Shown one piece after another: positions 2,242 through 25,338 of a DNA stretch of 25,338 bases. Both the position numbers and the translations under genes were made by a program. Every line of letters starts with the position of its first letter. Position 1 is the stretch's first letter. The DNA is from a virus, in IMG/VR virus record IMGVR_UViG_3300032160_000050, positions 1 through 25,338 of that record. One strand, 5' to 3'. The notes beneath the pieces were generated by a model. The model was not told where the DNA came from and made no database searches. It saw only the letters and a program-made list of their open reading frames with translations.

Positions 2242-2408
2242 TAATCGAAATCGAACTGGCGATAATCGCGGGACAGCTTGCGGGAATCGCTTTGCTACTG
2301 TGGAACGTGACCGAAGAGCCAAGACGAAAGAACTCCCGCGCGCGAGTAGAAGAACGGGAACGCCTGAAGCGCCACGAAGAGTGGCGGAGGAATCAAGATG
2401 CTCGATAA
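2238..2408 (+). CDS. 56-aa single-helix membrane protein with charged tail
   Basis: ATG at 2238 overlaps the previous stop as ATGA, and the TAA at 2406-2408 lies 11 bases inside the next gene. Residues 3-23 (IEIELAIIAGQLAGIALLLWN) form one hydrophobic helix. The rest, from EEPRRKN onward, is strongly charged (RARVEERERLKRHEEWRR) and probably a cytoplasmic amphipathic helix. No family is recognised. A lysis accessory role is conceivable but nothing shows it; the endolysin is 3.7 kb away. The exact stop/start overlaps on both sides support it being a real gene. Confidence 0.6.
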   Translation: MIIEIELAIIAGQLAGIALLLWNVTEEPRRKNSRARVEERERLKRHEEWRRNQDAR

Positions 2409-3015
2409 GCGGTGGAAGAAGATCCTGGCCGGGTGCCTGCTGGCGGGAGTGCTGATCGCCCAACAGCCGATCCAGTTGCAGACCGTCAATGGCGGGGGCG
2501 CCGTCGCGCTCGGCCACGGAACTGCGGCAGCGGCTCTCCGCGTGGAGTTGCCCACCGATGGCACCGGGCAGGTAACCCTCGCTTCGGGAGCCACCGTGGC
2601 CTTGGCGGCTGGCTCCGCTTCTGTGGGCACGGTCGGTTTGAACGCTGGCTCGAACGCCATCGGCACGGTCCAACTGCTTCCGCAGTCCACCAGCACTTAC
2701 GCGCTCACGGCCTACGACTTGGCCGCCACTGCCGCAACCAACGTCAAGGGCAGCGCGGGCAACGTCTATGGCTGGTACGGCTATAACCCCAACGCCAGCA
2801 CTTGCTTTTTGCAGTTCTATAACTCGACTTCGGCCACCCTCGGTACCTCGCCGCTTCATCAGTTTGGTATCCTCGCCGGTGCCAGCTTCAACATGCAACC
2901 CGGCCCGGTTGCCATATTCAATTTGTCAACTGGCATCAGCACGGGGCAGACGACCACGGCGACCGGGAGCACTCAGTGCGGCTCGGCGATGGTTATCACC
3001 ATCATTTACCAGTGA
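2398..3015 (+). CDS. Exported beta-rich protein of the virion module
   Basis: 205 aa. The N-terminus is a Sec-type signal: basic MLDKRWKK, a hydrophobic run ILAGCLLAGVLIA, then cleavage near A-Q-Q. The mature part starts with a short repeat-like series (VALAAGSASVGTVGLNAG, then SNAIGTVQL). The C-terminal half has alternating beta pattern and aromatics (NVYGWYGYNPNASTCFLQFY), as in small phage beta-sandwich proteins. LAGC near the start looks like a lipobox, but the hydrophobic stretch before it is too short. The start overlaps the previous gene by 11 bases, and the end overlaps the next as GTGA. Function unknown. A signal peptide here is odd if the protein joins a cytoplasmically assembled virion. 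Confidence 0.65.
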   Translation: MLDKRWKKILAGCLLAGVLIAQQPIQLQTVNGGGAVALGHGTAAAALRVELPTDGTGQVTLASGATVALAAGSASVGTVGLNAGSNAIGTVQLLPQSTSTYALTAYDLAATAATNVKGSAGNVYGWYGYNPNASTCFLQFYNSTSATLGTSPLHQFGILAGASFNMQPGPVAIFNLSTGISTGQTTTATGSTQCGSAMVITIIYQ

Positions 3016-4863: not shown

Positions 4864-5256
4864 ATGCATAAAACGGTACTACTGTTGGCGCTGGCTATCC
4901 CCGGATTCGCGCAGTCCTGCCCTACCGGAGTCGTGCACTGCACGAGCCTGAGTTGGGCGGCGGGCACCACGCCCGGCGGAGTCGCGGTGGGATTCCACGT
5001 CTGGAAGGGGTCGAACTGCGCCGCGGTCGGGACGCCTGGGCAACCACCCGCACAAACCACGCCGTACGCCACCGTGGCATCTCCCACCGTGGTGGCCTAC
5101 ACGGACACCAACGTCACGGCAGGGGCGACGGTCTGCTACGGCCTGACCGCCTACAACGGGTACGGTGACTCGCCGCTGAGCGGGGAGGTCTCAGCGACCA
5201 CACCGGCCTTTTCCGTCCCTCCTGTGCCGACTGCTTTGTCGGCTGTGGCCCAATAG
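4864..5256 (+). CDS. Exported fibronectin type III-like protein
   Basis: 130 aa. The signal peptide MHKTVLLLALAIPGFAQ ends in the A-Q style seen in several genes here. The mature part is one Fn3-like beta-sandwich: the LSWAAGT strand, WKGSNC, then the hallmark end VAYTDTNVTAGATVCYGLTA, followed by YNGYGDSPLSGEVSATTP. Such domains bind carbohydrates or proteins and often decorate phage tails and capsids. A CPTGVVHC pair follows the cleavage site. GAGAGGAACTG precedes the ATG. A membrane-protein gene lies just upstream. A virion or surface role is inferred; the presence of a secretion signal argues for the periplasm or cell surface. Confidence 0.7.
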   Translation: MHKTVLLLALAIPGFAQSCPTGVVHCTSLSWAAGTTPGGVAVGFHVWKGSNCAAVGTPGQPPAQTTPYATVASPTVVAYTDTNVTAGATVCYGLTAYNGYGDSPLSGEVSATTPAFSVPPVPTALSAVAQ

Positions 5257-7653: not shown

Positions 7654-8895
7654 ATGGCAGGCAACTACGAAGCTGTACGACGCGAAGTCACTGCGGAGTT
7701 TCTCCGCATTTTCACCAACAATTGCGTGATGCCGAGGCTCCTGAAACGGAGCTTCGAGAAGTACTTCCAGGAGAACGTCAAGATCGGCGCGTCCCTCGAC
7801 ATCAAAACGGCGCTGCGCGTGGTGGGCGCGGACGGCCAAGCCTTCCAGCCGGAAGGGCTGATCCGCACGACCCTACCGCTCACGGTGGCTTACTGGAACC
7901 AGGAAGCGTTCGTGTACAACGATACCGAGGAAGCGTTGTACTTGAATGAGGACATCAAGAAGAACTACATCCACCCGCACGCAGTGAACTTGGCGAACAA
8001 GGTGGACAGGTACATGCTTCAGTACATGCAGGCCATCGTCCCCAACTGGACCGGCACTCCCGGAACGACTCCGACCAGCGCCACCCAGGGTCTCGTCCCC
8101 ACGGCCTACCAGTCGGCTCAGACCAAACTCGATCAACTTCTGGCCCTGCAGGCAGACCGGTCCATCGTCTACAACGCCACCTTCAACCAGCAGGTGGTGC
8201 AGACGGTGAGTACGATCTTCCACCCCGGCGATGCCATCAAGACGGCATTTTTGAAAGGCTATCTGGGTGAGTACGCCGACTTCGAATTTTTCAAGGATGA
8301 GCAAGTCCCGTCCATGACTGTCGGAACTTACGCCGGCTCTGGCCAAGTGAACGGCGGAAACCAAACGGGCACCTCGATTCTCACCAACAACTGGACCGCG
8401 GCAAGCGTTTCGCTGTCTCAGGGACCGGGCGTGGACCGCTGCACGTTCGCCGGCTGCCTGGAGATCAACTATCAGTCGCGGTTGCCGCTGCCGGGAATCC
8501 TGAAGCAATTCGCTATCGTTTCTCCGGTCACCGATGCCGCAGGCGCGGCCACGTTCAGCGTGTTCCCTGGCGTGATTCCGGCGGGACCCTACCAGAATTG
8601 CTCGGCCAGTCCGACCAATGGCGGGGCGGTAACCATCGCGGGCGCCAGTGGCGCCGCGTGCGTGACGGCTTTCGCCTTCCAGGAAGACGCCTTCACTTGG
8701 GTCTCGATCCCGCTGATGGACGTTTCCGAATACGGCGCGAAGTGCTACACCCTCGGCGAGCCGGAGACGGGCATGAACATCCGCTGCATTCAGCAGTGGG
8801 ACAATCGGCTCGGAGAGGTCACTACGAGGATGGATTTCGTCTGGGGCATCGCGCAGACGGAAGCCGATCACAAAAGCCTGGTGATCTTCGGCTAA
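7654..8895 (+). CDS. Major capsid (coat) protein, P22 gp5-like
   Basis: 413 aa; P22 coat has 430. The N-terminus (AGNYEAVRREVTAEFLRIF) and the QENVKIGASLDIKTALRV segment have the length and layout of P22-type coat proteins. Further family features are EGLIRTTLPLTVAYWNQEAF, a Lys/Tyr/His helix (NEDIKKNYIHPHAVNLA), the AFAFQEDAFTWVSIPL strand near the C-terminus, and the terminal RMDFVWGIAQTEADHKSLVI. It should form the HK97-fold capsid shell. Six or seven Cys residues (for example DRCTFAGCLEI) are more than usual. The scaffold gene is immediately upstream. A strong GGAGG site supports the start. Family call confident. Confidence 0.9.
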   Translation: MAGNYEAVRREVTAEFLRIFTNNCVMPRLLKRSFEKYFQENVKIGASLDIKTALRVVGADGQAFQPEGLIRTTLPLTVAYWNQEAFVYNDTEEALYLNEDIKKNYIHPHAVNLANKVDRYMLQYMQAIVPNWTGTPGTTPTSATQGLVPTAYQSAQTKLDQLLALQADRSIVYNATFNQQVVQTVSTIFHPGDAIKTAFLKGYLGEYADFEFFKDEQVPSMTVGTYAGSGQVNGGNQTGTSILTNNWTAASVSLSQGPGVDRCTFAGCLEINYQSRLPLPGILKQFAIVSPVTDAAGAATFSVFPGVIPAGPYQNCSASPTNGGAVTIAGASGAACVTAFAFQEDAFTWVSIPLMDVSEYGAKCYTLGEPETGMNIRCIQQWDNRLGEVTTRMDFVWGIAQTEADHKSLVIFG

Positions 8896-8901
8896 GGAGC
8901 T

Positions 8902-9765
8902 ATGACCATGAAACTCTTTTCAAAAATCTCGATTCTGGCTCTCCTGAGCGCCTTCATGGCCGCTGCGCAGACGGCAACGCCATCGACTACCCTGTGTGGC
9001 GCGCAGACCAAGGCTGCTACCACCATCTGCCTTACGAGCACCGCCAATATCGTCAACCAGGTGGGCGTCTACGTAGACGAGGAATACGAGCTGGTCCAAC
9101 TCAGCGCTAGCCAAGTGGTTTGCACCGGACCCTGCCAGGTACCGGTGTCGCGGAATAACCGCGCGGGAGGAAGCGGCCCGACGTCGCACGCCAACTCCGC
9201 TATTGCCTGGGAAGCCCTGACACCAAGTCAGACTCCCGTTCCCGGCGCTAACGGGTTCGAGCTCGGAACGAACTTGACGGACATTGGCACCTGCACGCGG
9301 GCGTCCCTTTCCTACCTTCCAAAGATTTGGCCAAACCGGGGCATCAAGCGCGACTGCGTTGCGGTCACCAACAACGCTTCAGTTGGCGCTTGGGTCGATT
9401 TCGCGCCGATGTCGGGGCTTGACTTCACGAGTCCGACGCCGCTTTCGTCCATCGCCGTCAATGGCGCGCTCTCTGTGTCGAGCGGCAATTACATCCTGCT
9501 AACCAAGGCTGGCGTCATCGCCTTGACCCTGGCGGCCCCGACTGCGGGCGTGCAGGATGGCATGGTGATTACGATCACCGCCAACAACGGAGCCTATGCG
9601 GACACTCTGACTGCCACCGGCCTGATTCAGACTGGTGGCGCAGGCTCGCCTTACACCACGGCCACGTTCGGCGTGACCACGGCTTTCAACGGGGCGTCTC
9701 TCACCCTCAAATCGTACAATGGGTACTGGTACGTGGTATCCAGCGTAAATGTGGCGTTCACATAA
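8902..9765 (+). CDS. Exported structural-module protein
   Basis: 287 aa directly after the coat gene, with a perfect AAGGAG six bases after the coat stop. The Sec signal is MTMKLFSKISILALLSAFMA, continuing AAQT. The mature part has Cys pairs (CGAQTKAATTIC, CTGPC) and a middle domain with VGVYVDEEYELVQLS and VPVSRNNRAGGSGPTSHA, which resembles phage head/tail accessory proteins in which a beta-barrel carries a mobile RG-rich loop. A C-terminal beta domain follows (ALSVSSGNYILLTKAG, then GVIALTLAAPTAGVQDGMVI, ending SYNGYWYVVSSVNVAF), common in fibre and decoration proteins. Position suggests a capsid decoration protein or head fibre; the signal peptide does not fit simple cytoplasmic assembly. 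Confidence 0.65.
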   Translation: MTMKLFSKISILALLSAFMAAAQTATPSTTLCGAQTKAATTICLTSTANIVNQVGVYVDEEYELVQLSASQVVCTGPCQVPVSRNNRAGGSGPTSHANSAIAWEALTPSQTPVPGANGFELGTNLTDIGTCTRASLSYLPKIWPNRGIKRDCVAVTNNASVGAWVDFAPMSGLDFTSPTPLSSIAVNGALSVSSGNYILLTKAGVIALTLAAPTAGVQDGMVITITANNGAYADTLTATGLIQTGGAGSPYTTATFGVTTAFNGASLTLKSYNGYWYVVSSVNVAFT

Positions 9766-10265: not shown

Positions 10266-11063
10266 GTGCCGAATCCCGTGGCCGTCACCGGCCAGTACAT
10301 CATCAACAACGCTTTCACCGCCCTGGGAATCCTCGAACAAGGCGGCGCTCCTTCAGTTTCCGATTCGGTTGACGCCCTGGCGGAACTCAATGACATGTGG
10401 GGTGCCTGGGGAATCGACGAAGGGTTGATCTTTTCCTCGGTCGCGGCGCAGTTCGCATGGCCGGCGGCGACCCCCAGCGTGGGAATGGGCGTGACAGCGC
10501 CTCCCCCCTTCAATCAGATCGGCGTCCCAGCGCGCATCTACGATGCCCATATGATCCTCGGAGGAATCCGCAAGCAATTGAAAATAGTCGATTTGGAAAC
10601 CTATACCGCCCATGGGGACTTGACCGCCACGGGCCTCATTGCCGACGAATTGCACCCGGACTGGTTCGTCAACGTTGGCAATGTGGCGGGCGTCTCGGGC
10701 TGCATCACGCTGTACGTATTCCCAGTCCCTTCAGGCGCGATCATCCTGGAACTCTCGGTTGGCATTCAGGCTTTTAGCCTGTGGACCCTCGCTGGGGCAA
10801 ACGTTTACGTTCCACAGGGTTATGTCGATGCACTGAAGTACACCCTCGCCTACCGGCTCCTACCGCGTTTCGGCGTGGCGGTCCAACCGCAGGTGGCCGA
10901 GACGGTTACACAGTTGGCTGAAAAGGCTGAAGCGCGCATCCGCGAAATGAACGCGATCAACCGGCAACTGAAAGGGCAGCAAGGCGCGCTCCCCGGATCG
11001 CCCGGCACACCGGCCGCGCCGCAGATGGCTCCCCAACCGGCTGGCGCTGGCGCGGTAAGGTAG
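10266..11063 (+). CDS. Head-completion / tail accessory protein, P22 gp4-like (copy A)
   Basis: 265 aa. gp4-type proteins bind the portal after packaging and begin tail assembly. The N-terminal signature is AFTALGILEQGGAPSVSDSV, continuing DALAELNDMWGAWG: the helix, (E)xxPS, D-A-L-x-x-L-N-D-M-x-x-x-W pattern of this family. Then come beta strands ITLYVFPVPSGAIILEL and the helical YVPQGYVDALKYTLAYRLLP segment, and the C-terminal AEKAEARIREMNAIN helix. A Pro/Gln/Ala-rich tail follows. P22 gp4 is shorter (166 aa). The start is GTG with GGGAGGGCGAC upstream. The following gene is a recognisable paralogue. Confidence 0.8.
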   Translation: MPNPVAVTGQYIINNAFTALGILEQGGAPSVSDSVDALAELNDMWGAWGIDEGLIFSSVAAQFAWPAATPSVGMGVTAPPPFNQIGVPARIYDAHMILGGIRKQLKIVDLETYTAHGDLTATGLIADELHPDWFVNVGNVAGVSGCITLYVFPVPSGAIILELSVGIQAFSLWTLAGANVYVPQGYVDALKYTLAYRLLPRFGVAVQPQVAETVTQLAEKAEARIREMNAINRQLKGQQGALPGSPGTPAAPQMAPQPAGAGAVR

Positions 11064-11067
11064 AGAC

Positions 11068-11853
11068 ATGCCATGGGTTCAAGGCGACGGCAGCGCACAG
11101 GACTTCATCTACCGCTCTTTCCGCAAAATCGGCCAGATCCGGCCCGGCTATACGCCATCGCCCGAGATTCTGCAGGACGCTCTCACTGAGTGGGGCGATT
11201 TTTTCGATGCCCTCGGCGCTGAGCAGAACGCACCCTATTCGAATCCCGTCTACCAGCACGCGGTGAGCGGTCCCGGCTCGCAGACCAACGGCAACGGCTA
11301 TCAGGTGGGACCCACGGCGGCTGACTGGGTGCAGCCGCGGCCCGAGGAGATCATCCGCGCGAACCTGGTCTTCACCAGCCAGGGACCGCAACCGGTTTAC
11401 ATCCAGTTGCGCCCGGTCAGCCAGGCGGAATGGGCCGCGCTCGCCATCCAACAGATTCCCGCGGTCAATGTAACCTCGATTTTCTGGTACGATCCGCAGT
11501 TCCCGAACGGCGTTTTCAACGTCTTCCCACCGCTGAACAGCAACGCTATCCAACTCTATCAACGCGGCATCCTAGCGTCCCCGGCCACGCTCGCGACGGT
11601 CTACACCGCGCCGCCGGGCTACAACGATATGGTGACCTACGGGCTGGCCGAGCGCCTATATTATCTGGCCACCAAAGAGGTGTGCATCCATCCGCGGCCC
11701 TACCAGAACATCGCGGCGCGGGCCGCCAATGCGCTGAACTACATCAAGCGCATGAACCGGCCGATCCCGCGGCTGGCGAACGATTTCCAGAGCGGGAAAA
11801 AGCCGGATGGCTTCTACGACAGCCAGGTCTATCAGACTGGGATTCCCTACTGA
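11068..11853 (+). CDS. Head-completion / tail accessory protein, P22 gp4-like (copy B)
   Basis: 261 aa. It has the same architecture as the preceding gene: N-terminal DFIYRSFRKIGQIRPGYTPS followed by EILQDALTEWGDFFDALG; central strand pair FWYDPQFPNGVFNVFPPLNS and AIQLYQRG; then APPGYNDMVTYGLAERLYYL and the helix IAARAANALNYIKRMNRP. The two proteins align segment by segment though identity is low, so this is an old tandem duplication. It may act as a second adaptor ring or as a different tail-tube component. There is no clear ribosome-binding site; a TAAGGT lies six bases before the ATG. Confidence 0.75.
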   Translation: MPWVQGDGSAQDFIYRSFRKIGQIRPGYTPSPEILQDALTEWGDFFDALGAEQNAPYSNPVYQHAVSGPGSQTNGNGYQVGPTAADWVQPRPEEIIRANLVFTSQGPQPVYIQLRPVSQAEWAALAIQQIPAVNVTSIFWYDPQFPNGVFNVFPPLNSNAIQLYQRGILASPATLATVYTAPPGYNDMVTYGLAERLYYLATKEVCIHPRPYQNIAARAANALNYIKRMNRPIPRLANDFQSGKKPDGFYDSQVYQTGIPY

Positions 11854-11854
11854 G

Positions 11855-14533
11855 ATGAAACAACTCCTGGCAATCTTGCTTTTCACTGCCGCCGCACAGG
11901 CTCAGAACGCCTTCCCCGCCCCACAACCGCAGTTGCAGTTCACTACGGCGGGGGGACCCCTGGCAGGTGGAAAGCTCTGCACCTACGTGAGCAACACCAC
12001 GACGCCGCTCGCGACCTACACCGATGGCACAGCGAGCGTGGCTAACTCCAACCCGGTGGTGCTCGATACCAACGGCAGCGCCAGCGTGTGGCTCACGCCC
12101 GCGGGCCTGTACACCTTCGTGCTGCGCTCCGGCGGCGATGGGAGCTGCACCACCGGAACGGTCCTATGGACGCAAAACGGAGTGGGAATCACTGCGGCTG
12201 GCCTGGTCAACGCCCTCGCCATCCCCCAACTCGGAACCGGCGCCAAGACTACGGGAGGCTATATCGATGTTCCGCCCATCACCGGCCCGCAAGTCGGTTG
12301 CACGGATGCCTTCGGCAACCCCGTGGAGATTCCCGTGCGGCTTGGCGGATTGCCGGCCATTGGGAAGAACGACGTGGTCATGTGGAATTCTCCATCGCCG
12401 CTTCCGGGAGTGAATCCTGGGGGATGCGCGATCAGCCTCTACAGCCAGAATGTCTATGGCCTGAACATCAACACGTACGTCCTGGCGCAGGGCGGTTTTG
12501 CCACTTTCCTTGGAAAGTTCGATGAGTACCAGGCTTCCTACGACCCGGCCACCATGCACGTGGGCGGCTATGTGGGCGGCAGCTTCACCGCGGGTACCCT
12601 CTATCCCATCGGCACGATTACCAGTACTGGAACTCTCACCGCTCCGGCCTACCTTGGCGGCTACATGCTGATCGGGCACTCCGCCGGGCCGCCGGTCGCC
12701 GGCACCATCGCCAGCGTGACAAATCCCCTGTCCTACGGTGAGGGCTTGCTTCAGGGCATGATCTATTTCGATGACACGTTGAAGTGCGGCCAACTCTATA
12801 ACGGGACCGGCTGGAACGGCTTTGGGTGCGGAGGCAGCGGAGGAATGCCGGGCGGCGGGACGGCCTCGATTCAAATCAATAATGGGGCCGGAGGATTTGG
12901 CGGAGACGCTAATTTCACCTACGTCGCTGGCACGGCGGTAACCCTCGGCGGCGGGGCGTCCTTCTTCGTGTCCGATCCCGCCGCTGGTTTCGATGCCAGC
13001 GCCTGCACGGCGACAAATTGCATTCAGGCACCCTTGGGGGGCATCCTCGGTCTGACGCTGCGCACCACCGATTCAGTGATTTGGGTTGAGGAAGCCGCTC
13101 CATCGCTCAGCTCCGCCGGCCAAGCGCGCATCTACGACGACTCAACCGCCCACGCGCTCATGGTCTCGCTGAACGGCGGGGCGTACTCGACTTTCGGCAC
13201 GGGCACTGTCACCCACACCGCCGGCGCGCTCACCCAGTACGCGGTCATGCTCGGGGCCGGCGCGGCGGATTCGACAGTGGTGTCTGGCTTGGGCACCGCA
13301 GGCTACGTGCTGACTTCAAACGGCGTGGCAGCGGCTCCGACCTGGCAGAATGTTACCGGCACTGGCACCGTGACGCACACGGGCGGCGCGCTCACGGCGA
13401 GTCTGCCCATCATCGGCAACGGTGGCGGCGACGTGAAGCCTGGCACCGTCAGCGGCAACACCACCGAATTCGGCACAGTGAGCGGTTCCCTGGTATCCGG
13501 AGATTGCCTGAAGGCCGACGCCAGCGGCAACATCGTGGACCAGGGATCTCCGTGCGGCTCGGCCAGCGCGGGTGTGTCCTCCATCGCGAGCGGTGGCAGC
13601 GGCCTCTACACCGGCGCGATCACTCTGACCGGCACGGCCAACCAGGTGATCATCACCCCCACCAGCGGGCCGAACACGTTCACCTTCAGCCTGCCGCAGA
13701 GCATCGCCACGGGAAGCGCTGTGACCTTTGGGTCGGTTACAATTGGCGGCGCGTTCACTACGAGTCAGACGGGCAGCAGTTACGCTTTCGTCAACAGCGA
13801 TGGATCTTTTAGCGTGACGGGAACCGGCGTCGTGACGGCTTCCGGAAGCGCGACTTTCGCCAATGTGACGGCGGGCAGCAACTCGGGCGCTGGCGTGATT
13901 CAGCCGTGGTGCGCGAACACTACAGCGGCCTGCTTTCAACTGGTCCAAACGGGCAGCGGCGGATCGATCACGCCGATTCAGATGGACGGGCAAGGCGACC
14001 TCAGCATATCCGGTCAATTCGTCATCAACTATGGCGGAGGTAGCTATAGGGTTCAAAGTACTGGACTTGCGACGAGTTGGTACAGCGGATCGACGGCTGA
14101 ATTTACAGTCAATTCCTTGAATGGCCTGATCACCGACTATGCCGGTCATACCGTAGGCACCAATAGCCAGGGCGTCTCCTGGATTCCGGCGACTTACCAG
14201 GCTACGGGCCAGACCGGCTCCATTTCAGCGCAGAGTCTCCAAGTGGGCGGCGGTATCGCCCCGGCTGGCCAGTACCGGATAAGCGCCACTGGAGGCGTCA
14301 CGACGGCCGGAACCGGCGGAACGCTCTTCGCTTATGTCTCCTACACAGGTGCGGGAGGAACGAGCAATCAGCCCCAAATCTGTCAATTTCTGGCGACGGC
14401 GGGCGGTACCTGTTCCGGGTCCGTGACGATCTACACGACCGGAGCGGCGAACATTCAGTTTTCCACCACGGCGTCCGGCTTCACGGGTAGCCCTCAGTAT
14501 TCGATCTACGTGACGCTGGAGCGGCTTCAGTAG
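11855..14533 (+). CDS. Tailspike/tail-fibre-like protein with signal peptide
   Basis: 892 aa from ATG 11855; an in-frame ATG at 11807 lies inside the previous gene and would bury the signal. Residues 1-17 (MKQLLAILLFTAAAQAQ) are a classic Sec signal. Residues ~20-115 match the head-binding type domain of phage tailspikes: PLAGGKLCTYVSNTTTPLAT, YTDGTASVANSNPVVLDTNG, SASVWLTPAGLYTFVLRSGG, then VLWTQNGVGI. After a middle domain comes a Gly/Ser/Thr-rich shaft with repeats (GTGTVTHTAGALT and GTGTVTHTGGALT; TSNGVAAAPTWQN). The C-terminus is a beta domain (AGQYRISATGGVTTAG ... QYSIYVTLERL). No depolymerase motif is recognised. It probably recognises the host surface. A Sec signal ahead of a capsid-attachment domain is unexpected. 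Confidence 0.75.
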   Translation: MKQLLAILLFTAAAQAQNAFPAPQPQLQFTTAGGPLAGGKLCTYVSNTTTPLATYTDGTASVANSNPVVLDTNGSASVWLTPAGLYTFVLRSGGDGSCTTGTVLWTQNGVGITAAGLVNALAIPQLGTGAKTTGGYIDVPPITGPQVGCTDAFGNPVEIPVRLGGLPAIGKNDVVMWNSPSPLPGVNPGGCAISLYSQNVYGLNINTYVLAQGGFATFLGKFDEYQASYDPATMHVGGYVGGSFTAGTLYPIGTITSTGTLTAPAYLGGYMLIGHSAGPPVAGTIASVTNPLSYGEGLLQGMIYFDDTLKCGQLYNGTGWNGFGCGGSGGMPGGGTASIQINNGAGGFGGDANFTYVAGTAVTLGGGASFFVSDPAAGFDASACTATNCIQAPLGGILGLTLRTTDSVIWVEEAAPSLSSAGQARIYDDSTAHALMVSLNGGAYSTFGTGTVTHTAGALTQYAVMLGAGAADSTVVSGLGTAGYVLTSNGVAAAPTWQNVTGTGTVTHTGGALTASLPIIGNGGGDVKPGTVSGNTTEFGTVSGSLVSGDCLKADASGNIVDQGSPCGSASAGVSSIASGGSGLYTGAITLTGTANQVIITPTSGPNTFTFSLPQSIATGSAVTFGSVTIGGAFTTSQTGSSYAFVNSDGSFSVTGTGVVTASGSATFANVTAGSNSGAGVIQPWCANTTAACFQLVQTGSGGSITPIQMDGQGDLSISGQFVINYGGGSYRVQSTGLATSWYSGSTAEFTVNSLNGLITDYAGHTVGTNSQGVSWIPATYQATGQTGSISAQSLQVGGGIAPAGQYRISATGGVTTAGTGGTLFAYVSYTGAGGTSNQPQICQFLATAGGTCSGSVTIYTTGAANIQFSTTASGFTGSPQYSIYVTLERLQ

Positions 14534-14851: not shown

Positions 14852-15199
14852 ATGAGAAAGTACCTCCTGGCGGTGCTGCTTTTCCCTCTGATGCGCTGCT
14901 CCACCTCGCCCGACGTGCAGGCCGTGCGTCAGAACGCCTCCTACCGCCGCGGCCTCTCCGACCTGAACGCGAAGATCCGCGAGGAAAGTGCGGCCCGCGA
15001 CGCCCTGGTGAAGGAATGGGCGCGCGTCTGCACCGGCAAGGGTGCGGCGCTCGGGATCGACGATTTCAAGGAGGTAAGCTGCATCCCCGATCCAAAGGCG
15101 CAACAGGCCGCAGGCACCGGCCAATCTGCTGAGCAAAAGGCCATGCCGATGCGCGGCACCGTCAAGGTCGATCCTCCCGTGAAGCCCGCGGCGCAATGA
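14852..15199 (+). CDS. Exported or membrane-anchored coiled-coil protein, unknown
   Basis: 115 aa. The N-terminus MRKYLLAVLLFPLMRC is a signal or anchor. It resembles a lipoprotein signal, but Arg precedes the Cys, so lipidation is doubtful. Residues ~25-60 are a charged helix (ASYRRGLSDLNAKIREESAA, then RDALVKEWARVC) likely to form a coiled coil. The tail is Pro/Gln/Ala-rich. A one-helix anchor plus periplasmic coiled coil is the layout of an inner spanin, but it is 8 kb from the endolysin and next to tail genes, so that reading is weak. Its stop overlaps the gp10-like start as ATGA, indicating co-translation. Confidence 0.55.
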   Translation: MRKYLLAVLLFPLMRCSTSPDVQAVRQNASYRRGLSDLNAKIREESAARDALVKEWARVCTGKGAALGIDDFKEVSCIPDPKAQQAAGTGQSAEQKAMPMRGTVKVDPPVKPAAQ

Positions 15200-16764
15200 G
15201 CCAACCCTTCGCCGGATTTATCGGCCCCAGCTACCAGTTGTCAAATCGCTGGGCCGCCATCGAGCGCTGCGCGAACTGGTTTTTGGTGCCCGTGGAATCG
15301 TCCGACGAAACCAAAAGCCGCGTCGTCTTCGATCCCTTCCCGGGGAATCGGCAGTTCTCAGCGCTCCCTCTGGCCCCGCCTTTCAACCAGCCGTGCCGCG
15401 GGCTATTGGAGAACCGCGGGGCGGTCTACGGCGTGAACGGCACGTGCGTCTACATCCTCTTGCCCTCGGGCGCCATGCAGCAACTCGGCAACATCGTTAG
15501 CGACGGCAAGCCCGTCAGCATGACGGCCAATGGAAACGGCCAGATCGGAATCAGCAGCGCTGGCCGCTTCTGGGTCTTCGAGCCTGCCGGGTGGGCGGCG
15601 GAAGTCCCGGTGGGAGATAAGTTCCTGGGCAGTGGCGTCATCACATTCCAAGACGGGTACGTGATCGCTGTCACCCCGAATTCCAACCAATTCCAAATCA
15701 GCGGCACTGACGACATCCCTATTGGCGACATGCGCGTCTGGGACGCGGCCAACGTGAGCATCCAGGCCGGCCAAGCCGACAATCTCCGCGCGGTGCTTTC
15801 CTCGAGGGAATACCTCCGTCTGTTTGGCCATCGGCGCTCGCAGGTCTACCAGAACGTGGGCAGCGCCGGAATCGGCGGTTTCCCCTTCCAGTCGTACAAC
15901 GAGACCTTCATCGAGACTGGCTTGGCCGCTCCCTTCGGTCTTTGCGACCTGGGCCAGTCCGTCGTGTGGATCGGTGAAGACGCGCGGGGCCAGCGCGCGG
16001 CGTGGCGGGACATCGCTTTCCAACCCCAGCGGATTTCGACATTCGCGGTAGAGTTGGCCTGGGGCGGCTATCCGACCGTGGAGGACGCAACCTGTTTCCC
16101 GTTCATTTGGCAAGGCCACCTGATGGTGCGCTTCGACTTCCCGAGCGCGCAGCCGGTCTTCGATGGCGCGGCGCAGAACGGCGCGAGTTGGGTCTACGAC
16201 GATACCGCCAGCGCGCTACTCCAGCGGCCCATCTGGACGGAGGTGAACTTCACCGCGGCTAACGGCATTCAGTCGCGGCGGCCCGAGCAGTTCCACTGCT
16301 TCGCTTTTGGCAAACATCTGGTGGGAAGCAACGGCCTCGACGGCAATCCGGGAGCGGTCTACCAGTGGCAGCCGGGCCAGTATTCCGACTGCGCGGTCGC
16401 GCTCGATGGCACCCAAACGCAGGTGGAAATCGTCTGGGACCGTATCTGCCCGCACCAGTGGAGCGGCAACAAACGCGTGGTCTACAATCGCATCGAGTTC
16501 GAATTGGCCCGCGGCGTGGGACTCGACGGGGATCCGCCGGTAGGCGCCAATCCCCAAGTTCTGTTGCGCTGGTCGGACGATGGCGGATCGACTTGGAAGC
16601 CGTTTGTAAACATCCCCATTGGGAGACTGGGCCAGTACCTGGTGCGGGTTTACCGGAACCGCGTAGGGTACGCGCGGGATCGCGTGTTCTGGCTGCGGTG
16701 CTCAGATCCGGTATTCAATTCACTGGTGGGCGCAACGCTCGATTCCTTCGTCTGCGGCTCTTGA
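15196..16764 (+). CDS. Tail hub / packaged-DNA stabilisation protein, P22 gp10-like
   Basis: 522 aa; P22 gp10 has 472. In P22, gp10 hexamers bind below gp4 and close the portal channel. The N-terminus FAGFIGPSYQLSNRWAAIER, continuing CANWFLVPVES, is the family signature (G-x-GPSYQ ... ERC-NW). The following beta-propeller-like strands are typical: GLLENRGAVYGVNGTCVYIL, then FQDGYVIAVTPNSNQFQISG, REYLRLFGHRRSQVYQNVGS and SVVWIGEDARGQRAAWRD. The C-terminal domain has LLRWSDDGGSTWKPFVNIPI and YRNRVGYARDRVFWLRCSDP, a motif shared by many podophage tail hubs. No signal peptide. The start overlaps the previous gene (ATGA). Family call confident. Confidence 0.87.
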   Translation: MSQPFAGFIGPSYQLSNRWAAIERCANWFLVPVESSDETKSRVVFDPFPGNRQFSALPLAPPFNQPCRGLLENRGAVYGVNGTCVYILLPSGAMQQLGNIVSDGKPVSMTANGNGQIGISSAGRFWVFEPAGWAAEVPVGDKFLGSGVITFQDGYVIAVTPNSNQFQISGTDDIPIGDMRVWDAANVSIQAGQADNLRAVLSSREYLRLFGHRRSQVYQNVGSAGIGGFPFQSYNETFIETGLAAPFGLCDLGQSVVWIGEDARGQRAAWRDIAFQPQRISTFAVELAWGGYPTVEDATCFPFIWQGHLMVRFDFPSAQPVFDGAAQNGASWVYDDTASALLQRPIWTEVNFTAANGIQSRRPEQFHCFAFGKHLVGSNGLDGNPGAVYQWQPGQYSDCAVALDGTQTQVEIVWDRICPHQWSGNKRVVYNRIEFELARGVGLDGDPPVGANPQVLLRWSDDGGSTWKPFVNIPIGRLGQYLVRVYRNRVGYARDRVFWLRCSDPVFNSLVGATLDSFVCGS

Positions 16765-16777
16765 CATTCTCGCCGGA

Positions 16778-17620
16778 ATGGGCGATGCTGCAGACGTGGC
16801 TTATCCCGGCGGGAAAAACGGCGCTGGCGTTTACCAGCGGCTCATCAACCTGATGCCTCCGCACCGGGTTTACATCGAACCTTTCCTGGGCGGCGGTGCG
16901 ATCATGCGGCTCAAGCGTGCGGCGCCCCTGAGCATCGGCCTCGACCTCGATCTCGAAGCGCTGGCTATGGCGATGCCGCCGGAGGGATCGTCGCGGATCG
17001 CGATGCGCGATCGCGCACCATCGGATTCGGTGATAGCGGCCGAAATCGCCCGCATCGGCGATGGCGGATCCGCCACCATCCGCATCGACGATGGCGGATC
17101 CTCCATCTTTATCCACGGCGATGGGATCCGGTTCCTGGAAGCTTATCCTTTTCGCGGGAACGAACTGGTTTACTGCGATCCGCCCTACATGATGGAGACG
17201 CGCTCCGGGCGGCGACTCTACGCGCACGAGCTTTCCGAGGGGGGCCATCGCCGTTTCCTGCGAGTGGTGATGGGGATCGCTGAGCGCACCAAAATCATGA
17301 TTTCCGGATATTATTCGGCGCTGTATGGGAAAATGCTCGAAGCTCCCATCTGGCAGACCGTCAGTTTCGAGGCCATGACGCGCGGCGGTCGCACCGCTAC
17401 CGAGTGGCTTTGGTTCAACTTCGATCCACCCAAGGAGCTTCACGATTACCGCTACCTCGGCCAGAACTTCCGCGAGCGCGAACGCATCAAGCGGAAAAAG
17501 GCGCGCTGGACTGCCCGGCTGGCGCGGATGGAACCGCTGGAGCGTGCAGCACTGATGCTGGCGATGCAGCACTCCAACGCCGATTCTGACGCTAATAGCA
17601 GCTTTACAATTAAGCCATGA
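16778..17620 (+). CDS. dam: DNA adenine methylase, Dam/D12 class
   Basis: 280 aa, the length of E. coli Dam. It transfers a methyl group from S-adenosylmethionine to N6 of adenine. Motif order is that of alpha-group enzymes: YPGGK at residues 9-13, FLGGGAI at 36-42 (SAM binding), a variable target-recognition region, and the catalytic DPPY at 134-137. Later come MISGYYSALYGKML and ATEWLWFNF. The variable region contains a 10-residue tandem repeat (IGDGGSATIR at 93-102, IDDGGSSIFI at 103-112). The gene has 11 GATC sites, six of them within 16986-17128. It may protect phage DNA from host restriction or alter expression. GATC specificity is likely but unproven. Confidence 0.88.
   Translation: MGDAADVAYPGGKNGAGVYQRLINLMPPHRVYIEPFLGGGAIMRLKRAAPLSIGLDLDLEALAMAMPPEGSSRIAMRDRAPSDSVIAAEIARIGDGGSATIRIDDGGSSIFIHGDGIRFLEAYPFRGNELVYCDPPYMMETRSGRRLYAHELSEGGHRRFLRVVMGIAERTKIMISGYYSALYGKMLEAPIWQTVSFEAMTRGGRTATEWLWFNFDPPKELHDYRYLGQNFRERERIKRKKARWTARLARMEPLERAALMLAMQHSNADSDANSSFTIKP
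17054..17113 (+). repeat. 30-bp tandem repeat in the methylase gene
   Basis: Two adjacent 30-bp units (17054-17083, 17084-17113), both starting ATCG(G/A)CGATGGCGGATCC. They encode related decapeptides in the expected target-recognition region. Each unit carries a GGATCC. Confidence 0.75.
17605..17610 (+). promoter_or_regulatory. Candidate -10 box (TACAAT) for a leaderless transcript
   Basis: TACAAT, then exactly six bases, then the ATG at 17617, as at 14840. No ribosome-binding site precedes this ATG. No clear -35. Confidence 0.35.
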
Positions 17621-19010: not shown

Positions 19011-19225
19011 CGACCTACGACCGCCTGAAGCGCGCCGCCGAGCGCGCGGGGACGAGCGTAGACGCGCCAGACGCGCCCTTCGAAGGCGATTCTCTGGATT
19101 TCCTGCTGCTGATCCAGAAGGTGGAAGAAGAGTTCGGCATCGAGCTTTCGGTCTGGGCGCTGGGAAAGCGCCGGGTGAATACTCCGCGCGAGTTGGTAGC
19201 TTATGTGGATGAGTGCGGCCTGTGA
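19007..19225 (+). CDS. Acyl-carrier-protein-like protein
   Basis: 72 aa, matching the ACP length of 75-80. The sequence EGDSLDFLLLIQKVEEEFGI has the ACP helix-II signature: D28-S29-L30-D31 with Ser29 as the phosphopantetheine attachment site, followed by a hydrophobic helix and EEFGIEL. The end NTPRELVAYVDE matches the ACP helix IV (T-x-x-DLVxYV). One departure is the basic GKRRVN loop. If modified by a host phosphopantetheinyl transferase it would carry an acyl chain. It is translationally coupled to a GNAT-fold gene (overlap at 19222), suggesting the two work together. The ACP call rests on a short motif but the fit is good. Confidence 0.7.
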   Translation: MTTYDRLKRAAERAGTSVDAPDAPFEGDSLDFLLLIQKVEEEFGIELSVWALGKRRVNTPRELVAYVDECGL

Positions 19226-19695
19226 TTACCTTTCAGCTTGAAGCGTGGCCTGACGTGGCCGAAGAGATCAAGGCGCTGGCACTCCTCCAGTACGAAGAGA
19301 TTGCCCTGGACCGGGAGGCCATACCCTACGATCCGGACTGGAACTATTACAGCCAGGCGCACGCCATCGGGCGTCTCAAGGTCGTGACGGTGCGCCACAG
19401 CATCACTTACCCGGTGGGCCGGTTGGTGGGCTGGTACGGCGCTCTCGTGATGCCTCACCCGCACTACCGCTCCACGCTATTCGCTTTCCAGGACCTCTTC
19501 TATCTCTTGCCGGAGTACCGGCGCGGCACTACGGCGGCGCGGCTCTTCGTAGAAGCTGAGCAGATGCTGCGCGCGGCGGGCGTCAAATGCGCCATCTCGA
19601 TCAGCAAGGATCACATGCCCGGCGCGGCGGCGCTCCTGGACCGGCTCGGTTGGCGGCGCGTGGGCGTGATGCACACCAAGTTGCTGCTACCATAG
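19222..19695 (+). CDS. GNAT-family acyl/acetyltransferase
   Basis: About 157 aa from the GTG at 19222, which overlaps the ACP stop as GTGA; the GTG at 19213 (+3 residues) is an alternative. The C-terminal half shows the GNAT fold: strand beta-4 FAFQDLFYLLPEYR, the acyl-CoA loop and helix RRGTTAARLFVEAEQMLRAA, strand VKCAISIS, and the last strand pair ALLDRLGWRRVGVMHTKLLL. The acyl-CoA loop is degenerate compared with RxxGxG/A but resembles phage-borne GNATs. The N-terminal part holds EEIALDREAIPYDPDWNYY, possibly shaping the substrate site. The substrate is unknown. Some GNAT-fold enzymes use acyl-ACP (LuxI-type, HlyC, FeeM), which the neighbouring ACP makes plausible. Confidence 0.8.
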   Translation: MITFQLEAWPDVAEEIKALALLQYEEIALDREAIPYDPDWNYYSQAHAIGRLKVVTVRHSITYPVGRLVGWYGALVMPHPHYRSTLFAFQDLFYLLPEYRRGTTAARLFVEAEQMLRAAGVKCAISISKDHMPGAAALLDRLGWRRVGVMHTKLLLP

Positions 19696-23830: not shown

Positions 23831-24340
23831 ATGAACCTCATGCGAACCTTTCTCGCGATTCTAGCGCTGGCGGCGGCCGGCTGGGCGCAAAACGTGGTCC
23901 GCTGGAGCGCTACCACCGGCCAAGTCTCCCTGACCTCCAGCGGGACGGCGGCGACCGTCCAGCAGCCCCCCACGGGCGCGGCCCAGGAGATCATCGAGCA
24001 GATCGTCGTGTACTGCTCAGTCGGCTGCACGGCCACCCAGTACAGCGGCGGTACAGCGGCGACGGCCACGGCTGGGACGGTCGTTCCTTTGCTCCCGGTG
24101 CAAGCCAACTTCCCCATTCCGCTGAACTTCTACACGGCTTCTAACACGGGCACCGGCACTCAGCAGGGCGGCATCACGAACATCCCGGCCGGCGCGACCG
24201 TGGTGCTCTGCCTGGCGCGGACCTGCGGCAACGGCGGCGATGTAGCGCTTCCGGCTACGTCGGGCGCTCAGTACACCCTGGTGATCGGCTCACTCACCGG
24301 CACGGTCAACATCACCTTTTACGGCAGGCAAATCCAATGA
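23831..24340 (+). CDS. Small exported beta-rich protein
   Basis: 169 aa with a clear Sec signal (MNLMRTFLAILALAAAGWAQ). The mature part is beta-rich with two close Cys pairs (VYCSVGCTAT, LCLARTCGNG) and a C-terminal VALPATSGAQYTLVIGSLTG followed by TVNITFYGR. The layout suggests a small decoration or adhesin domain. TGGAGGCG precedes the start by 10 bases. The stop overlaps the following fibre gene as ATGA, so the two are probably made together and may act together, for example as a fibre and its accessory protein. No family recognised. Confidence 0.65.
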   Translation: MNLMRTFLAILALAAAGWAQNVVRWSATTGQVSLTSSGTAATVQQPPTGAAQEIIEQIVVYCSVGCTATQYSGGTAATATAGTVVPLLPVQANFPIPLNFYTASNTGTGTQQGGITNIPAGATVVLCLARTCGNGGDVALPATSGAQYTLVIGSLTGTVNITFYGRQIQ

Positions 24341-25338
24341 GACGCGGGCTATTCGCAGTCCTGGCGCTCTGCCTTTATGTGGCGGTGCGCGCCCAAGCCC
24401 CGGTTCCCGGCAATATCGTGGGCGGCGTCGCGGGGGGCGTCTCGGCTCTTGCGACCTGCACTTTCGCGTCCTCTGCGACTGGTTGCGCAACGCCATCGAG
24501 CATCAATGTCCTGTCCCTCCAGATGACTCTTCCGCAACAGATGACGGTTTTCTGCGAGGTTGCAAACAGCGGAACTTACAGCCAAGTTTCGGCCACTTAC
24601 ACCTATACGACTAGCGGATCTTACATCTCAACCGTTTCTCCGGCCTTCAGCAGTACCGCCTATGCGGGGTACTGCGCCGTGCTCGGCAACAACGCCACTG
24701 GCCCGGCGGGTCCCGTGCTCAGCGTCAACACTTACACCGGAGCGGTGATCCTCACCAAAGGCGATGTCGGACTCAATAACGTGGTGAATCTTAACCAGAC
24801 CGTGGCCGACAATATTTCCAGCGGGGTGCTGCGGGTGAGCACCCAAAACGTGGTGTCGTGCATTCCGGCCAGCGGGTCTGGCACGCATTATACCTGTGCG
24901 GGAGTTCCGCCTCCCACCAGCTATTTGCAAAGCTGGATTCTGGAATTCGTCCCGGATGTCAACTGCGGATCTAACCCGGACGTGAACGTCGCCGGTCTCG
25001 GCGCGGTCAATTTGATGACAACCGCCAGCACGCATTGGAGCGGCTGTACCGCAGGAACGGGGTACATATTTTACTACGATAATGCGACGGAGTTTTTGCT
25101 GGCGGCGGGCGGCGGTCTGTCCGGTTACACCACGAGCGGCACAGGAACCGTTCTCGCCTTGACCGGCTCTCCAGCCATCGCAAATATCTCCCCGGGAGCG
25201 GACTTCACCTTGACGCAGAATTCGGTCGCCGTCATCAAGTCGATCAATGCGAGCGCGGCGGCGAGCACGTTGTTCCTGCGGGCCGGGACTCTTGGCATTG
25301 GGATCGATCCTTCGGGATTTTCCAGTGCCCTCGTGGCG
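24337..25338 (+). CDS. Tail fibre with signal peptide (3' truncated by window end)
   Basis: ATG at 24337 in an ATGA overlap; the frame stays open to the last base, giving 334 codons. The signal peptide is MRRGLFAVLALCLYVAVRAQ. A beta domain with Cys residues follows (TCTFASSATGCA). The hallmark tail-fibre motif VNTYTGAVILTKGDVGLNNV, continuing VNLNQT, is then clear; it matches the T-GxVxLTKxDVGLxNVxN repeats of phage fibres. A second beta domain has WILEFVPDVNCGSNPDVNVA, and a shaft-like GTGTVLALTGSPAIANI follows. This is the second receptor-binding-type protein with a secretion signal in the window. Fibre identity is good; the C-terminal receptor-binding tip is outside the window. Confidence 0.75.
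   Translation, partial: MRRGLFAVLALCLYVAVRAQAPVPGNIVGGVAGGVSALATCTFASSATGCATPSSINVLSLQMTLPQQMTVFCEVANSGTYSQVSATYTYTTSGSYISTVSPAFSSTAYAGYCAVLGNNATGPAGPVLSVNTYTGAVILTKGDVGLNNVVNLNQTVADNISSGVLRVSTQNVVSCIPASGSGTHYTCAGVPPPTSYLQSWILEFVPDVNCGSNPDVNVAGLGAVNLMTTASTHWSGCTAGTGYIFYYDNATEFLLAAGGGLSGYTTSGTGTVLALTGSPAIANISPGADFTLTQNSVAVIKSINASAAASTLFLRAGTLGIGIDPSGFSSALVA

Follow-up and report, generated by a model that had tools for sequence, protein, structure and literature searches.

A Sec-type signal peptide in front of a P22-type tailspike head-binding domain suggests a periplasmic route for exterior virion parts in a group of short-tailed phages

Textbook tailed phages are assembled in the cytoplasm. 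In phage P22 the tailspikes are added last, and they can join spikeless heads in vitro. Phage-encoded Sec signals occur on proteins of the lambda Lom/Bor type, which are host-envelope conversion proteins and not parts of the virion exterior with head-binding domains. In Rhodoferax phage P26218, Xanthomonas phage PBR31 and related podophages, the head-binding domain of the spike begins at the initiator methionine, the spike has no signal, and at most one signal per genome is called by the rule used here. Lom is also treated as an exported phage protein in PMC12309495, and Dec, the decoration protein of phage L, attaches in vitro to mature P22 capsids (PMC7602432). The protein described below resembles the tailspikes of P22, Sf6, Pam1 and Pan3 in the fold and N-terminal position of this domain and in its gp4, gp10 and P22-type capsid neighbors, but adds a Sec signal and a pair of cysteines, one in the KLC strand and one in an inserted GGDGSC loop. 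With P26218, PBR31 and their relatives it shares the head-binding domain family as well as capsid and gp10 homology. With Lom/Bor it shares the phage-encoded signal, whereas the head-binding domain and a predicted place on the virion exterior set it apart.

The window, i.e., the whole stretch of 25,338 nucleotides (25.3 kb) of record IMGVR_UViG_3300032160_000050, represents a short-tailed, P22-like phage. It encodes the C-terminus of the portal, an endolysin, a scaffold, a P22-type coat protein, two gp4-like adaptors, the tailspike ORF and a gp10-like hub (Table 1). In the structural block, the gp4-like genes are followed by the tailspike ORF and then by the gp10-like gene, with the P22 coat gene nearby. 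Close relatives were sought with three queries, the head-binding domain, gp4 and the capsid protein, and these scans returned nothing beyond the same phage and one partial relative; more distant sister phages, with 50–60% gp10 identity, were found by gp10 alignment. These relatives are metagenome fragments, and their genes were called with an in-house gene caller.

Table 1. Features of the window that bear on the signal-bearing tailspike and its neighbors.
Feature	Coordinates	Strand	Basis
Tailspike/fiber preprotein, whole, 892 aa	11855..14533	+	Open in-frame ORF; sole ORF of the record with a head-binding domain
Predicted Sec signal peptide MKQLLAILLFTAAAQA of the tailspike	11855..11902	+	Sequence; sister phages keep the feature, not the sequence
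Mature head-binding domain, P22/Pam1 fold (predicted)	11903..12211	+	AlphaFold pLDDT 91; Foldseek; VIA
Cys codon 1 (KLC) of the signal-associated pair	11978..11980	+	Alignments; signal association
Cys codon 2 (GGDGSC loop) of the signal-associated pair	12146..12148	+	Alignments; signal association
gp4-like tail adaptor, first copy, without signal	10266..11063	+	phrog_12985; phrog_637 head-tail adaptor Ad3
gp4-like tail adaptor, second copy, adjoins the tailspike ORF upstream, without signal	11068..11853	+	phrog_12985, E 7e-12
gp10-like packaged-DNA stabilization/tail hub protein, without signal	15196..16764	+	tblastn: 'phage stabilization protein' and 'head closure Hc3' records
P22-type major capsid protein, without signal	7654..8895	+	Pfam P22_CoatProtein E 3e-24; PHROG 283 E 5e-42
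Signal-bearing protein directly 3' of the capsid gene, 6 Cys	8902..9765	+	Possible decoration protein
Small signal-bearing protein, 2 Cys	2398..3015	+	Signal scan, Cys count
Small signal-bearing protein, 4 Cys	4864..5256	+	Signal scan, Cys count
Signal-bearing protein, 4 Cys; family signal-bearing in 5/5 records	23831..24340	+	Signal scan
Minor-tail-like protein with signal (MRRGLFAVLALCLYVAVRAQ), runs off the record end	24337..25338	+	PHROG 2952 minor tail protein, E 4e-5; signal read by eye at this start, the script placed the start later

A sequence-only reading of this DNA had proposed that an export signal directly precedes a domain of the P22 tailspike head-binding type, and this holds for the tailspike ORF, whose N-terminus reads MKQLLAILLFTAAAQA|QNAF and is of the Sec/SPase-I type. 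The signal is, however, 16 residues long, and not 17 as had been thought, with predicted cleavage at AQA|QNAF, so that the mature protein would begin QNAFPAPQPQLQFTTAGGPLAGGKLCTY. In our rule-based scan it has the tripartite Sec/SPase I layout, with K2 in the n-region, the h-region LLAILLFTAAA and small residues at positions -3 and -1. An alternative start upstream, at 11807, would place the first 47 nt of the ORF inside the gp4-like gene. The PLAGGKLCTY, NPVVLDTNG and WLTPAGLYTFVL motifs are present in the ORF as previously read.

The assignment of the region behind the signal to the head-binding fold, for which a comparison of the predicted structure with the P22 tailspike N-terminal domain had been proposed as the check, is borne out by several methods. 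By phmmer it matched the head-binding domain of the Pam1 cyanophage tailspike (7eeq, E 4e-6), and tblastn with the domain found 33 phage records, many of them annotated as tailspike or tail fiber. The AlphaFold model of preprotein residues 17–119 reached a pLDDT of 91.4 and a pTM of 0.83. In Foldseek this model retrieved 7eeq (E 9e-5), Pan3 9vyg, P22 1lkt (probability 1.00) and 8eb7, and Sf6 7sg7, all at probabilities of 0.99–1.00, while VIA-align gave Z scores of 10.9 for 9vyg, 10.3 for 7eeq and 8.6 for 1lkt. The domain thus has the P22/Sf6/Pam1 fold as modeled, and it lies N-terminally in a long fiber/spike protein of a P22-type structural block. In signal-less homologs it starts with the initiator methionine, about 15–20 residues before PLAGGK; the cleaved window protein would have an N-terminus of about this native length. 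Since the 16-residue signal stands in front of the domain, which would come to lie at the N-terminus in the predicted mature form alone, the window domain is a variant and not a standard member of the P22-type tailspike head-binding domains.

We found that signals of this kind are not restricted to the window. Besides its own, 16 signal-bearing head-binding domains were detected, mostly in the gp10 sister phages, where a signal precedes the domain in every case in which the domain was found, and in a second lineage. The signal sequences are largely unrelated to each other and are mostly cut at A|Q, e.g., MRLAALAFLGIALSA|QTLPNAVP in L025, MKRLLSVLAFTVAAVA|QTAAP in L018 and MKRILWLLAAVAFA|QDP in L022; among the sister phages all differ, save the near-copies of L021 and L027. 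The second, distant lineage (L046/L047) has a signal of its own, MKRLLTLWALILLYAIPAQA|GSY. In these two records (L047:17567-20000 and L046:12509-15106), the domains are near-identical, and the signals have diverged strongly and differ in length by two codons, in frame. In the 20-codon signal of L021 and L027, seven codons differ, six of them synonymously and one by an R/K exchange; this pattern indicates translation of the segment and selection on it at the protein level, as does the retention of the feature across divergent sequences.

The presence of the signal coincides with that of cysteines in the domain. According to alignments, most signal-bearing domains have one cysteine in the KLC strand and one in the inserted GGDGSC loop, and in L022 and L046/L047 the cysteines occupy other or slightly shifted positions. 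At least two cysteines are present in 17 of 17 signal-bearing domains vs. none of 87 signal-less ones (104 records; Fisher 7e-20, a value that ignores kinship). On a gp10 tree of 63 rows, signal and cysteines each require two changes, and these are the same two; both traits thus appear to have arisen together at least twice. Resting on two independent origins, the link is a striking coincidence, short of statistical proof. The obvious reading of the pair is a disulfide that would be formed on the oxidizing side of the membrane.

Other proteins of these phages show the same combination. With a home-made signal rule, which recovers nine of ten known E. coli signals, signals were called in 46 of the 317 genes in the window's group that encode 100 aa or more, compared with 7 of 312 such genes in the related control phages (p 1e-8, overstated, as the protein sets include homologs of one another). 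All 38 curated signal-bearing proteins have cysteines in their mature part, and the number is even in 34 of the 38 vs. 81 of 189 cysteine-containing signal-less proteins (p 7e-8, overstated for the same reason); for one of the four odd cases the cleavage site had been misplaced, and another count gives it an even number. Like the paired cysteines of the domain, these counts fit disulfide formation in the mature proteins. In turn, none of 104 core genes examined (portal, scaffold, capsid, gp4, gp10 and others) was called with a signal, the gp4-like adaptor being signal-less in 18 copies. Pfam returned nothing for most of the signal-bearing proteins; weak PHROG matches point to tail-fiber, tail and virion-structure families. 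In several phages a signal-bearing gene lies directly 3' of the capsid gene. In the window the model of its product was of very low confidence (pLDDT 36), so that assigning it as a decoration protein is conjecture drawn from gene position.

A similar pattern was observed in the podophage Tunturi 1 (PMC11924767), whose laboratory host is the acidobacterium Tunturiibacter psychrotolerans X5P2. Signals precede gp12, gp13, gp14 ('tail spike'), gp16 and gp17 ('virion structural'), whose mature parts hold 20, 10, 20, 1 and 32 cysteines, respectively. The five signal-starting genes lie in one block (L172:10371-23028), and several of them are annotated as virion proteins. Tunturi 2 has signals as in Tunturi 1, with gp13 annotated as 'tail fiber' and gp14 as 'pectin lyase', and Tunturi 3 and 4 yielded no signal calls in their structural blocks. 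In the text of PMC11924767, the word 'signal' occurs only within a reference. While Tunturi 1 and 2 resemble the window's group in having signals on 'tail spike', 'tail fiber' and 'virion structural' proteins with cysteine-rich mature parts, they belong to a different, 63-kb lineage with almost no genes in common, and this head-binding domain was not seen there; they appear to show the signal pattern independently of the window's clade. A signal-bearing homolog of Tunturi gp13 in one record of the window's group (G014, E 3e-10) hints at an Acidobacteriota host for this group. Scans of 84,980 reference genomes by gp10 alignment found no prophage of the window's clade.

The problem posed by the sequence-only reading, namely that a domain which has to meet the tail inside the cell follows a signal that would send it out, is genuine; the two solutions it offered, a domain reused on a secreted protein or a signal without function, are probably both wrong. 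We favor, with a probability of roughly 0.6, a reading in which the signal is functional and the protein is still the tailspike of the phage, disulfide-bonded in the periplasm and attached at or after lysis. The spike would be made as a Sec preprotein, sent to the periplasm and cleaved after AQA, which would leave a complete P22-type head-binding domain starting at normal length. There it would fold and trimerize, with a disulfide between the two cysteines absent from signal-less relatives. Heads filled with DNA and the gp4/gp10 hub would be built in the cytoplasm, and once the inner membrane and the wall are opened at lysis, the periplasmic spikes and other exported exterior proteins would join the heads as the last step. 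Export appears well supported by the sequences, which strongly suggest oxidation too, and late attachment we infer: if parts can be added late to finished heads, then the exterior parts may be the very ones that could be kept in the periplasm until lysis and attached then. Spikes that join only after lysis would be diluted unless they are abundant or held near the cell.

As export signals usually imply a role outside the cytoplasm, and several of the signal-bearing proteins have no known virion homolog, the exported protein could be something other than, or more than, a virion part, i.e., a released or surface-displayed decoy, a matrix-binding or depolymerizing factor or an exclusion factor with a captured head-binding domain. 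We regard this as unlikely. Each signal-bearing record checked has one ORF with the domain, and no second tailspike of this type was found, so the phage would be left without one; moreover, the gene sits within the gp4-gp10 block, the domain is retained in all relatives, and other signal-bearing genes match tail-fiber and virion families. The same two facts, a sole ORF and its place in the block, count against the earlier proposal of a domain reused on a secreted protein. Somewhat less probable again is an uncleaved hydrophobic N-terminus that acts as a membrane anchor, with spikes docking on heads at the membrane or using the segment at infection. A hydrophobic segment alone does not distinguish signal from anchor, but most members have short h-regions and A|Q-type cleavage sites, the mature length suits the native domain start, and the cysteine pairs and even cysteine counts indicate the oxidizing side.

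Under dual localization, virions would be assembled with spikes that stay behind in the cytoplasm, and the exported fraction would be a by-product or serve another purpose. This would resolve the topology with no need for assembly after lysis; yet the gained cysteine pairs suggest that the exported form is the working one, and we give this option a slightly smaller chance than the anchor. Very improbable, in our view, is a signal that is untranslated or non-functional, with the true start further downstream. The Shine-Dalgarno sequence before 11855 is weak, but the window has no in-frame ATG or GTG from the signal to the PLAGGK core, which removes the downstream start that had been named as a possible refutation; a wrong start codon was therefore rejected. 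Furthermore, signals are kept in many relatives, several of which have GGAG- or GAGG-like sites before the signal ATG, and the synonymous pattern of L021 and L027 speaks for translation. A dead signal was likewise rejected as unlikely, because the feature seems to be conserved by selection and co-occurs with the cysteine pair.

Extended beyond the window, periplasmic storage followed by attachment at lysis would amount to a two-compartment assembly in tailed phages, at least partly of Acidobacteriota, in which cytoplasmic heads and hub and periplasmic disulfide-bonded spikes, fibers and capsid-adjacent proteins are joined only at lysis. This reading as a whole, with at least two origins among P22-like phages and a separate one among Tunturi-like phages, we consider an evenly balanced proposition. 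In the open-access literature we found neither signal peptides described for the virion proteins of such phages nor a split, late-attachment assembly route. According to a paper on rumen phages, two Bacteroides phages have only one or two signals each or between them, and its other phages have none; a paper on phage DGR target proteins reports that the targets are without signals. The chimeric fiber proteins of Bdellovibrio (PMC10769870), an example of fiber-like proteins secreted by cells, also resemble phage fibers and serve the cell at its surface, but they are encoded by cellular genes outside any phage structural operon. If the proposed route is true, the division between a signal-less core and a signal-bearing, cysteine-paired exterior would mean assembly by way of the secretion and disulfide machinery of the host. 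It could explain a hardening of soil-phage spikes against outside conditions, and would warn annotators that 'secreted' phage genes may encode virion parts. The model is directly testable, because the cultured phages Tunturi 1 and 2 bear like signals.

Several further features of the window were noted. The two gp4-like genes stand in tandem, and their shared match to PHROG 12985 gives the impression of a duplicated head-tail adaptor; both copies are retained in the sister phages. Between the tailspike and gp10 genes, positions 14852-15199 encode a small protein, MRKYLLAVLLFPLMRCSTS, with a lipobox-like start, possibly an outer spanin or a lipoprotein. A probable adenine-specific DNA methyltransferase gene (16778-17620) lies within the structural block and is common only to L018/G003 and L019, and a GNAT-like acetyltransferase gene (19213-19695), also located amid structural genes, is common to L012 and L041.
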